Virus record (IMG/VR): IMGVR_UViG_3300032893_000199
Span: 1 to 35,041 of that record
From: a virus
DNA: 35,041 nucleotides
Reading direction: 5' to 3' (one strand)
Below are positions 4,597-27,260 of the stretch, piece after piece. The notes beneath the pieces were generated by a model. The model had not been told where the DNA came from. It did not search any database and saw only the letters and a program-made list of their open reading frames with translations. The position numbers were made by a program, and so were the translations under genes. Position 1 is the stretch's first letter. Each line of letters begins with the position of its first letter.

Positions 4597-4791
4597 TTAA
4601 AGCAAGAGGTCTTTATAATTAGACCCTAACGTATCTGCTATCTTTTTAAGTGTAGAAATTTTGGTAGATTTATTGTTGAGGATGTCATAATATGCTTGCT
4701 TAGTCATGCCTACTTTGTTAGAAAGCTCAACAATACTAAGCCCTTGCCGTTTCCGCTTGCGTTCAAGCCTCTCAATATTTATGCTCTCCAT
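4597..4791 (-). CDS. Cro/C1-type HTH regulator, 64 aa
   Basis: The 64-aa protein is almost entirely an XRE-family helix-turn-helix: LSIVELSNKVGMTKQAYYDILNNKST (18-43) contains the two HTH helices, and ISTLKKIADTLGSNYKDLL completes the five-helix domain. It has no cleavage or dimerisation domain, so it is Cro-like in size. It is divergent from the rightward early operon and faces the palindrome at 4891-4900, its most likely operator. This layout resembles a temperate-phage switch, but no partner repressor or integrase is visible. The ribosome site is weak (GGGTAAG). Confidence 0.85.
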   Translation of the reverse strand: MESINIERLERKRKRQGLSIVELSNKVGMTKQAYYDILNNKSTKISTLKKIADTLGSNYKDLLL

Positions 4792-4923: not shown

Positions 4924-5442
4924 ATGAAATACAAACATTCGCCTACTTGGAAGCCGCGCCGCGTAAATCTAACTTGTCAACATTGCGGGATCACATTTAC
5001 CGTTATGCCGTGCAGGGTAAAAAGGTCAGCATCTAAATTTTGCAGCCGGGAATGTTGGCATTCCTGGCGCATTAAAAATCATATCCGTTCGCTTCCCAAA
5101 ACATCCCATAACCAAAACATGCTTAAGCATGACACTAATGTTTCTACCATTTATAAGAGGGTACAACGGCGATTAGGCAAAACTGTCGGCGAATGTTCTA
5201 TTTGCGGGTTCCCCGGAGAACTATTTAAGCATCATAATGATTATAGCCAAGAGTTAGAAATATTGCAGCTTTGTCCGAGTTGCCACACTTTTCTTCATAG
5301 TAATACGGCTCATTCTAAAGAAATTCTTGCATATAGAAAAGATGTTTATTTGCGCGCATCAATAGCGCAAAAAGAAGTTGTTTCAAGTACAACCCGAACA
5401 CCGGCGTCTTTGGAATCTGTCGAATCTGTGATGTCGCGATAA
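4924..5442 (+). CDS. HNH endonuclease with N-terminal zinc finger, 172 aa
   Basis: Residues 17-41 form a treble-clef-type zinc finger (CQHC ... CSREC), often found ahead of phage homing nucleases. The HNH domain follows: CSICG (96-100), KHHNDY with the two histidines, then CPSCHTFLH. A Ser/Thr-rich tail ends the protein. It is the first gene of the early operon, with an AGGAGG ribosome site. It looks intact. It could be a free-standing homing endonuclease that has taken the first early position. Confidence 0.85.
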   Translation: MKYKHSPTWKPRRVNLTCQHCGITFTVMPCRVKRSASKFCSRECWHSWRIKNHIRSLPKTSHNQNMLKHDTNVSTIYKRVQRRLGKTVGECSICGFPGELFKHHNDYSQELEILQLCPSCHTFLHSNTAHSKEILAYRKDVYLRASIAQKEVVSSTTRTPASLESVESVMSR

Positions 5443-5570
5443 TAAGTATCGCATATGGCACACGAGGGTAACGGATACTTTATGGACAAGGGTGAAGCCC
5501 GGACGAATAGCCGATCTGGGAAGCAGTAGGGGCTTTGGCAAAGCAAACACATTTAGAAAGGGGGAAGGCG
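5443..5570 (+). other. short non-coding gap after HNH gene
   Basis: 128 bases lie between the HNH stop and the next likely start. A 24-codon frame (5455-5529) has no ribosome site and is not called. GTATC/GATAC could close a small stem, but I see no convincing RNA, terminator or promoter. Confidence 0.3.
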
Positions 5571-5915
5571 TTGGCAATAATAGAGGCGGAAAAATGGAAA
5601 AGTTGGGAAGTTGCAAATCAAGACCCTTATGGCAAATGTTGCGTTGATGTTGCCAGAGAGGTCATGCGGCTTCTCGATGAGGAAGATGATTTTGACACAC
5701 ATGAAATAATTTGTCGTGCAGACAAGAACATCGGAGCCGGGGGCATAACGGGATTTATGGCGGGATGTGTCGCAAGTATGGTTTCTGGCTGCCATAGTCG
5801 CGGTGAGGATTTCCGGCGCAAATGGAATACGGACAATCAAATAAAAGATGAGGGGGATAAGGCAAACGAAAGCGGAGGCGTTCTAAATCCCGCAATCCTC
5901 TGCATCGGCAAGTAG
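5571..5915 (+). CDS. conserved phage hypothetical, about 114 aa
   Basis: The recognisable part is EAEKWKSWEVANQDPYGKCCVDVAREVMRLLDEE, a helical stretch typical of a phage family of unknown function, followed by a glycine-rich segment (GAGGITGFMAGCVASMVSG) that could be a membrane or packing helix. I favour the TTG at 5571, which has AAGGGGGAAGG just upstream. A TTG at 5535 is possible but its ribosome site is too close. In-frame upstream residues look non-conserved. Confidence 0.65.
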   Translation: MAIIEAEKWKSWEVANQDPYGKCCVDVAREVMRLLDEEDDFDTHEIICRADKNIGAGGITGFMAGCVASMVSGCHSRGEDFRRKWNTDNQIKDEGDKANESGGVLNPAILCIGK

Positions 5916-5924
5916 CTCTTTCAA

Positions 5925-5943
5925 GGCGGGGATGCTCCCCGCC
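5925..5943 (+). other. perfect GC-rich hairpin (stem A:A')
   Basis: GGCGGGGA (5925-5932) pairs perfectly with TCCCCGCC (5936-5943) around a 3-base loop. No T-run follows on either strand, so it is not a normal intrinsic terminator. It is the first stem of the leader at 5952-6062. Confidence 0.6.
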
Positions 5944-5951
5944 CAAATCAC

Positions 5952-6062
5952 GCGGGGGTGTCCATAGAGTGTCGGACGGCTATCGACCGAGTCGTCAAGG
6001 AGAACTCTAGCAAGTATTCCGACTTTAGCTTGCCCGCCCCCGCCAATCCTGAGAGGGGGAGG
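5952..6062 (+). promoter_or_regulatory. candidate structured leader RNA (riboswitch-like)
   Basis: The non-coding leader can fold into nested stems. P1 is GCGGGGG (5952-5958) with CCCCCGC (6037-6043). P2 is TAGAGT (5965-5970) with ACTCTA (6004-6009), enclosing P3, TCGG-A-CG (5972-5978) with CG-A-CCGA (5984-5990). P4 is GCAAG (6010-6014) with CTTGC (6029-6033). The CCCCC of P1 (6037-6041) is also complementary to the GGGGG of the Shine-Dalgarno (6055-6059), and GGCGGGG at 5925 can pair with CCCCGCC at 6038-6044. These alternatives are mutually exclusive, as in translational riboswitches. The pairings are seen in the sequence; switching is inference. An in-frame GTG at 5958 could instead make this coding, but it lacks a ribosome site. 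Confidence 0.4.
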
Positions 6063-6071
6063 AATGAAGAA

Positions 6072-6446
6072 ATGATTACGAGTTGGGATATTTATTGGAT
6101 TACGCGGTTAGATGAAATTCACGGAATATGTTGGTTTCTGGTTATTGCCGCCGCTATCACGATTGCGGTTCTATTAGCTATGGCGGTTTGGGCGGCAGAC
6201 CAGATAGAACCAGAGAAGGCCAAAAAACGTTTATCTCTTTCAATCAAAATGGCTGTCTTTGCCTGCACCATTTTTATTTTCGGTAGCTTTGTGCCGTCAA
6301 CGAAAGATTTTGCTGCAATCTACCTGATTCCGAAAATCGCCAACAACGAACAGGTGCAGAAGGTTCCCGAAAACCTTGTCAGGTTGCTCAACACAAAAAT
6401 GGAAGCGTGGATTACAGACATGACTCCGCAAAAGGCAAAGAAATGA
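6072..6446 (+). CDS. phage membrane protein, 124 aa
   Basis: The protein begins MITSWDIYWITRLDEIHG, a start common to a phage family of unknown function, then has two membrane segments (about 19-42 and 58-75), followed by a soluble tail (IPKIANNEQVQKVPENLVRLL). I start at 6072, where GGAGG lies 9 bases upstream. A minimal frame ATG-AAG-AAA-TGA (6064-6075) overlaps this start. The structured leader suggests its translation may be regulated. It heads a run of coupled small genes. Confidence 0.8.
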   Translation: MITSWDIYWITRLDEIHGICWFLVIAAAITIAVLLAMAVWAADQIEPEKAKKRLSLSIKMAVFACTIFIFGSFVPSTKDFAAIYLIPKIANNEQVQKVPENLVRLLNTKMEAWITDMTPQKAKK

Positions 6447-8455: not shown

Positions 8456-8526
8456 GAGGTCGAGACCAAGGGTTGAAATCTACTCGGGGCGCGTTGTCGC
8501 TGCCGGTCGAAGGTAGGAGGCGGGGC

Positions 8527-8916
8527 ATGGAGGATAAGGGGAAACAGGAGTTGACGGAGACAAAAGAAGAAAGAATAAAACGTATGAGTCGGGAACGGGC
8601 AAGCCGTTGGCGGGCAAACAATAAAGAAAGACACGCCTCTTATACCCGCCAATGGAGGTCTGGCAATAGAGATAAGGCACGCAAACATAGCAGGGACAAT
8701 TACGTTAAAAACACGCCACAGCACAGAGTTCATAGTTCTGTTTTTAAGGCATTGGCATCTGGTCGATTGAGTAAACCAAATGCCTGTGAGAGATGTGGAT
8801 TGTCTGCCCCCGACCTTCATGCGCACCATGAAGATTATCAAAAGAGACTTGCCGTAAAGTGGTTATGTAGAGATTGTCATGCAGAAGTGCATACAAGAAA
8901 GGCGGTTGCGATATGA
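8527..8916 (+). CDS. HNH endonuclease, 129 aa
   Basis: A basic, helical N-terminal half (NKERHASYTRQWRSGNRDKA) is followed by an HNH domain: CERCG, HAHHEDY and CRDCHAEVH. AGGAGG lies 6 bases before the ATG at 8527, which I prefer to an upstream start at 8473. The 71-base gap before it contains a GGTC/GACC palindrome but no clear intron core. It is coupled to the next gene by an ATGA overlap. Probably a free-standing homing nuclease. Confidence 0.85.
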   Translation: MEDKGKQELTETKEERIKRMSRERASRWRANNKERHASYTRQWRSGNRDKARKHSRDNYVKNTPQHRVHSSVFKALASGRLSKPNACERCGLSAPDLHAHHEDYQKRLAVKWLCRDCHAEVHTRKAVAI

Positions 8917-26130: not shown

Positions 26131-26403
26131 TTAAGCCATGCCGCCCTTGTGACAGAAGCAAATCGACGCATTGCTTGTGTTGATTTTGGTGATGCCGAAG
26201 ATGATGATTTCGGTATTTCCAGTCGAACTCAAGTGCTGCGCGATTATGATGTCACCCACCTTGAGACCCGGCTGTGAACTCGTGTTAAAGTGAGTCACAC
26301 CGGAACTCGTAGTAAGGGTTGCACCGACGACGTAGGAATAGACGTTGCAAAGATTGCCTACTCCCAAGTTACTAAATCCGCATGATTGAAAAGTATCTGC
26401 CAT
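26131..26403 (-). CDS. small structural-type protein, 90 aa
   Basis: A beta-rich 90-aa protein (VYSYVVGATLTTSSGV, VGDIIIAQHLSSTGNTEIII) just after the major capsid gene, with GGAGGTGAC before ATG. Size, Ser/Thr/Gly content and place suggest a capsid decoration or cement protein. No family is recognised with confidence. Confidence 0.65.
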   Translation of the reverse strand: MADTFQSCGFSNLGVGNLCNVYSYVVGATLTTSSGVTHFNTSSQPGLKVGDIIIAQHLSSTGNTEIIIFGITKINTSNASICFCHKGGMA

Positions 26404-26420
26404 AGTCAGTCACCTCCCCT

Positions 26421-27260
26421 CTAAGCCAACAGAGCGGACGATGCCTCGTCAGCAGAAATCTTCACAATGCCGTATTCATCAATGACCACAGCACCGCAAG
26501 ACATCATGCTATTGACAAGCCACGCCACTTTCTGCGGGACATAGTTAATTTCAGTCGTTATCTGCTTGTTCTCCGCAAGTCCGATTGCGGAACGATGATA
26601 GAGGAAGCAAGACCGGACAGTTCCATTGAGAGGCAACTGGGATGAGAAGAACCAGTTGATACCCCTCCAATTCACTACCTGGGTTCCGTTAGTCCAAGGG
26701 AACTTGTCGCCGACATAATCCCTGCTGGACACCTGTGTGATGTTGATAAACTCTTCCCACTGCTGAGGCCCAAGCACCCCCCACCTGTCGCCGTCATCCG
26801 GCACATCGTAGGTGTTCAGGTCAAGAATCGCCGTGAGAAGTTTATACTTGTTAAGGCCGGTATTGAGGCTGCTTACGGTAAGGGTCGTTACCGCGTCCAT
26901 CTTCGCAAGAATCCTTAAATCTACTTCCCTTCCAAGCGCGCCCGCGCCCGAACGAGCATACGCCTGTCTCTCGTTCACGTTGGTCTTGAGTTCATCAAGA
27001 CTATCGAGATACTCAGGTGCGTACTTGTCGGTTGAGGTTGCTGTCTTGTTGGAGTGGACGGGGTTCATCGGAACGACATCGCCATTTCTGCCTTTGTCGG
27101 TTGCCGTACCCTTGCCAATGACGGGGAATTTTGCGACCTGTCCAGGGTCGAGCTGTTTCAGTCTGACGGTATTCCGCAGTTTGGAACCGAACTGCTGATA
27201 AGCCAAATGAACATCAGCGTCATATTGGGTTATGAATACCTGGTCAACGGTATTAGCCAT
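26421..27260 (-). CDS. major capsid protein, HK97-fold candidate, 279 aa
   Basis: MANTVDQVFITQYDADVHLAYQQFG is a typical start of podovirus capsid proteins, and FPVIGKGTATDKGRNGDVVP plus ERQAYARSGAGALGREVDLR match the strand and long-helix region of the T7-type HK97 fold. The C-terminal half has GINWFFSSQLPL and AWLVNSMMSCGAVVIDE, usual for the A domain. AAGGAGGATAAC precedes the ATG. Scaffold lies upstream, portal further up. It is shorter than T7 gp10A (345 aa). Confidence 0.9.
   Translation of the reverse strand: MANTVDQVFITQYDADVHLAYQQFGSKLRNTVRLKQLDPGQVAKFPVIGKGTATDKGRNGDVVPMNPVHSNKTATSTDKYAPEYLDSLDELKTNVNERQAYARSGAGALGREVDLRILAKMDAVTTLTVSSLNTGLNKYKLLTAILDLNTYDVPDDGDRWGVLGPQQWEEFINITQVSSRDYVGDKFPWTNGTQVVNWRGINWFFSSQLPLNGTVRSCFLYHRSAIGLAENKQITTEINYVPQKVAWLVNSMMSCGAVVIDEYGIVKISADEASSALLA

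Follow-up and report, generated by a model that had tools for sequence, protein, structure and literature searches.

In attenuators of the trp-operon type, pairing of leader segments 1:2 and 3:4 competes with pairing 2:3. Translational attenuation of the erm/cat kind relies on a leader open reading frame (ORF) and mutually exclusive stems, the last segment of which hides the Shine–Dalgarno (SD) sequence, and in phage MS2 the long-range pairing between coat and replicase provides translational coupling within a polycistronic mRNA. Here, we examined a leader at positions 5925–6062 of a virus record of 35,041 bases (the whole stretch of DNA analysed, referred to as the window), whose predicted folding recalls these systems. 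We favour, with a probability of roughly 40%, the reading that this leader is a cis-acting translational attenuator in an early mRNA and that it would be worked by ribosomes.

The locus and its flanking genes

The structural genes recognised with Pfam are podovirus-like (head-to-tail connecting protein, capsid protein and terminase), and the leader is located in a rightward early operon that begins after a leftward HTH repressor-like gene (4597–4791). Within this operon, a 156-nt gap (5916–6071) separates a Tad4-like gene from the gene of a small membrane protein. The GC content of the leader stretch is 0.58, compared with ∼0.47 in its surroundings. A preliminary description of this DNA had listed four GC-rich segments and a GGGGG ribosome site (6055–6059), all of which are present letter for letter: GGCGGGG at 5925–5931 (segment 1), CCCCGCC at 5937–5943 (segment 2), GCGGGGG at 5952–5958 (segment 3) and CCCCCGC at 6037–6043 (segment 4). 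The genes and signals around them are as follows:

5535–5915, plus strand: Tad4-like gene, Type I Thoeris inhibitor family PF25186 (Pfam E = 3.6e-9, 37.3 bits against a cutoff of 25)
5932–5967, plus strand: candidate 11-codon leader ORF (MLPAQITRGCP), with AAGG at 5923–5926 in front, covering segments 2 and 3; short ORFs of this kind arise commonly by chance
6055–6062, plus strand: SD sequence GGGGGAGG, including the G-run 6055–6059
6072–6446, plus strand: gene of a small hydrophobic protein, predicted to be a membrane protein, phrog_3878 (phrogs E = 6e-8)

The Tad4-like gene is a probable anti-defence gene, encoding a putative Thoeris inhibitor as judged from its family match. Its real start is probably a TTG at ∼5570, which is preceded by AAAGGGGGAAGG, and 12 viral relatives in IMG/VR share 38–67% identity with it, some of them on contigs of >100 kb. 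The downstream gene encodes a hydrophobic product of 124 amino acids from an ATG at 6072, nine nt past the SD sequence, and has relatives in BK063671, MW202801 and OR395405. Its membrane-protein-like character had been anticipated correctly, and the start is ATG 6072 and not GTG 5958: the relatives align from ATG 6072, and the extension from GTG 5958 is therefore not a conserved protein.

Several other genes of the window drew our attention. Two genes of the early operon resemble HNH-type endonucleases (4924–5442, phrog_1271; 8473–8916, recognised by motif only and without a Pfam match) and are possible homing endonucleases. Among the structural genes, the product of the minus-strand gene 24432–26171 matches the O-antigen ligase domain Wzy_C (PF04932, E = 3.3e-8); such a gene is odd for a phage structural cluster and may serve to alter the host surface polysaccharide. 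On the minus strand at 403–1164, a 253-aa protein without a Pfam match carries a CPNNCEDCFFQSG motif that recalls radical-SAM proteins.

Predicted folds and access to the SD sequence

Folding predictions yielded two sets of helices that compete for the same segments:

5925–5943, plus strand: hairpin H1 (segments 1:2), 5925–5932 with 5936–5943, 8 bp, triloop (probability P ∼0.98; z = −3.8)
5930–5963, plus strand: alternative helix 2:3, 5930–5935 with 5958–5963 and 5937–5942 with 5952–5957, 12 bp, one bulge (from prefix folding)
5952–6043, plus strand: P1 domain (segments 3:4), 5952–5960 with 6035–6043, enclosing P2 and P3 (z = −3.2)
6012–6093, plus strand: predicted RBS-enclosing hairpin, 6012–6025 with 6080–6093, 14 bp including G-U pairs, excluding P3 and P1
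6037–6059, plus strand: predicted anti-SD pairing, 6037–6041 with the SD bases 6055–6059, excluding P1

For the isolated leader, the P1 stem (9 bp, one G-U among them) was predicted with P ∼0.98. Two branches lie inside it, namely P2 (5965–5970/6004–6009 and 5975–5981/5990–5996, with an internal loop) and the hairpin P3 (6010–6015/6028–6033), which roughly recovers the junction of stems P2–P4 previously drawn within an outer stem. Measured against dinucleotide shuffles, the fold of the whole leader had a z score of about −2.7 (matched by 9 of 1000 shuffles), H1 and the P1 domain were each matched by 2 of 1000, and the interior of P1 reached a z score of just −1.6. On these predictions, the leader fold beats chance moderately. 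Globally, the 140-nt stretch 5921–6060 had the lowest folding energy among 3492 stretches taken from both strands of the contig, and it ranked fifth once GC content was regressed out. A GC-corrected fold stronger than that of the leader (residual z ∼−3.6) was seen near the capsid gene, on the minus strand at ∼26402–26541 (within 26382–26561).

Folding of prefixes that started at 5900 or 5916 produced an ordered succession of structures. H1 formed first, up to 5960; for prefix ends from 5965 to 6040, helix 2:3 dominated (P 0.62–0.98); and when the prefix reached 6045, with segment 4 complete, H1 and P1 took over (P 0.999). The preliminary description had proposed two alternative pairings of the four segments. 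The alternation of 1:2 and 3:4 with 2:3 is borne out by these predictions, whereas an outer stem of segment 1 with segment 4 (5925–5931/6038–6044) is negligible (P 0.0002).

The predicted outcome also depended on how much coding sequence was folded with the leader. Anti-SD pairing had a P of 0.01 in the isolated leader and of 0.44–0.99 when the coding sequence to 6110–6150 was included. It is assisted by the RBS-enclosing hairpin, the 3′ arm of which (6080–6093) corresponds to codons 3–8 of the membrane-protein gene. Shuffling gave a helix as long as this 14-bp one in 12 of 2000 and in 6 of 2000 cases, and synonymous recoding gave one in 27 of 2000 (0.3–1.4% by chance). The RBS-opening cost of the real coding sequence was reached by 180 of 300 synonymous recodings, and compared with these 300 no effect of the coding sequence on RBS accessibility was seen in either direction. 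With enough coding sequence, the two states lay within 1.4 kcal/mol of each other (open −82.6 versus closed −81.2 over 5900–6150; −66.1 versus −67.5 over 5916–6110), and P1 occupancy was 0.94–0.98 for stretches folded to 6090, 0.003–0.04 for those to 6110 and 0.02–0.56 for those to 6150. The dominant state varies with the end of the folded stretch, and prediction therefore cannot tell which state is the resting one.

Taken alone, the alternative pairings are slightly above chance: four alternative pairs of 7-nt arms were observed against 1.0 expected, a number reached by 94 of 2000 shuffles. Cross-pairing of G-runs with C-runs is partly owed to low complexity. A further stem over the SD sequence, P0 (5916–5923/6050–6057), proved strongly context dependent and was set aside; SD-pairing helices matching the longest one found occurred in 407 of 500 shuffles.

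As a measure of SD access, we calculated the energy needed to open 6055–6062 after removal of 5′ parts of the leader, mimicking a ribosome or another binder. The cost rose and fell with each segment removed, from 4.0 kcal/mol for the full leader (5′ end at 5916) to 10.6 without segment 1 (5929), 2.3 without segments 1 and 2 (5944) and 13.0 without segments 1 to 3 (5969). At these fixed cut points, which were picked with the structure already known, 2 of 240 shuffles attained the range, and not one of the 240 showed as large a net rise; with free cuts (a grid, taking the best range per shuffle), 3 of 120 shuffles reached the real value. Among the 37 ATG starts of the window that have an SD-like motif, this one had the largest range (11.9 versus 9.6 for the next, a minus-strand ATG at 27260). 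Jointly, these tests moderately favour a designed alternation, as tests that are mutually related and post hoc, with most significance figures at ∼1–3% and a hypothesis formed after the sequence had been seen. Mutually exclusive helices that alter SD access, as expected of the expression platform of a riboswitch, are present in these predictions, in agreement with the preliminary description.

Relatives and known RNA classes

We found no homologous leader RNA in phages, in plasmids or, by word and gapped-pattern searches, in IMG/VR. Similar DNA in phages and plasmids was limited to short chance matches. An exact 16-mer from the leader gave nine matches in IMG/VR, none of them alike beyond 16–17 nt at that place, and an exact 19-mer gave none. 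A gapped pattern of P1 plus its junction retrieved a single sequence, which was rejected: it lies in the coding sequence of a GC-rich phage and has a fold z score of +0.7. The leader was absent 3′ of the Tad4-like gene in the five relatives read, and when the records of all 12 Tad4-like relatives and of two membrane-protein phages were searched at the DNA level, only a 14-base match came up. Nor does the leader precede the membrane-protein gene in the three phage relatives examined, where this gene sits right behind another one (gaps of 1 nt in BK063671, 19 nt in MW202801 and ∼11 nt in OR395405). Queries with RecT, portal and membrane proteins against IMG/VR identified no near relatives of the phage, and the single match of a genome scan turned out to be an unrelated 252-aa membrane protein.

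The earlier statement that the leader matches no known riboswitch class holds for Rfam 15, which had no match in the window at the gathering score. The best sub-threshold candidate, the DUF3800-XI RNA (RF02975), fell short of its gathering score (15.1 bits, where 37.8 are required; E = 0.41 over 301 bases) and matched the other strand too; the likeness consists of the letters of a GGCGGGGA...TCCCC hairpin at one end. A tRNA-like reading, with GCGGGGG/CCCCCGC as acceptor and UCC/GGA, lacks a T-arm, and ARAGORN reported no tRNA in the window and none at relaxed thresholds. Neither strand of 5916–6071 contains a terminator-like site (GC hairpin plus T-run). Titles and abstracts of the literature on phage riboswitches and translational attenuators offered nothing directly comparable.

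Explanations for the leader and comparison with described systems

A serious, close rival of the attenuator is a stable structured spacer without switching, which could act as an mRNA stabiliser, an RNase processing site or an insulator against read-through ribosomes, and in which the alternative pairings would be explained by G- and C-run composition. This may well be what the leader is, given that H1 and P1 are predicted to be very stable and to dominate the isolated leader, that the 7-nt alternative arms are marginally over chance and that no homologue with conserved alternatives came to light. Against a mere spacer speaks the toggling of SD access, which exceeds 99% of shuffles with fixed cuts, 97% with free cuts and all other starts in the window. 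The absence of relatives from all collections searched and the raised GC content would also suit an orphan stretch without function, recently acquired or decaying. We consider such a chance origin unlikely for the contig's strongest fold, which lies in a compact phage genome and directly before an SD sequence.

A compact branched domain closed by P1, opposite the anti-SD strand, could in principle be the aptamer of a ligand- or protein-binding regulatory RNA, that is, a true riboswitch or the operator of a phage protein. However, no conserved core can be defined, Rfam and the homologue searches came up empty, and the fold inside P1 departs little from shuffles (z of just −1.6). Furthermore, 13% of shuffles contained a pseudoknot as long as the candidate at 5971–5976/6018–6023, and forming the latter would sacrifice P2 pairing worth 6.5 kcal/mol. 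We therefore regard this explanation as improbable, and the riboswitch-like reading of the preliminary description is not supported in the strict sense of a ligand aptamer.

Under the attenuator reading that we favour, the four segments would work as in the trp attenuator, with SD access rather than a terminator as output. When no ribosome is nearby, 1:2 and 3:4 would form, and P1 would hold segment 4 and leave the SD sequence relatively open. A ribosome over segment 1, for example one terminating on the Tad4-like gene at 5913–5915, would free segment 2 to pair with segment 3, and with segment 3 taken, segment 4 would cover the SD sequence, the RBS-enclosing hairpin 6012–6093 representing the closed form. 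A ribosome stalled on ORF 5932–5967, or any binder of segment 3, would be expected to close the site likewise. Ribosomes would be the natural drivers of switching in the cell, because this candidate ORF crosses segments 2 and 3 and 9 bases separate the upstream stop codon from segment 1. The purpose might be to set when, or in what amount, the membrane protein is made relative to the product of the upstream gene. A more specific version, in which termination on the probable anti-defence gene closes the next start through a four-segment cascade, as a phage-encoded SD toggle that reverses ordinary coupling, has in our view only a small chance of being correct. If the attenuator reading is true, an attenuator-style phage RNA would determine the order in which an early membrane protein and a probable Thoeris inhibitor are made, or their relative dosage, and the signal would be ribosome traffic and not a ligand. 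The leader also illustrates how little a single sequence without relatives lets one conclude.

Compared with the described systems, the leader shares with the trp attenuator its four alternating segments and a possible short ORF overlapping segments 2 and 3, but it lacks a terminator T-run, would act through SD access, and has an upstream ORF free of any run of a sensed amino acid. The candidate leader ORF, the mutually exclusive stems and the predicted covering of the SD sequence by the last segment resemble erm/cat attenuation. In contrast to that system, the isolated leader is predicted to be open by default, not closed, the regulated gene would be that of a phage membrane protein, and there is no leader-peptide homology. 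As in MS2-type coupling, access to the downstream SD sequence would be tied to ribosomes on the upstream gene, although a ribosome terminating upstream is predicted here to close the downstream site rather than to open it. Translational attenuation of a novel variant is a plausible candidate description of this leader.
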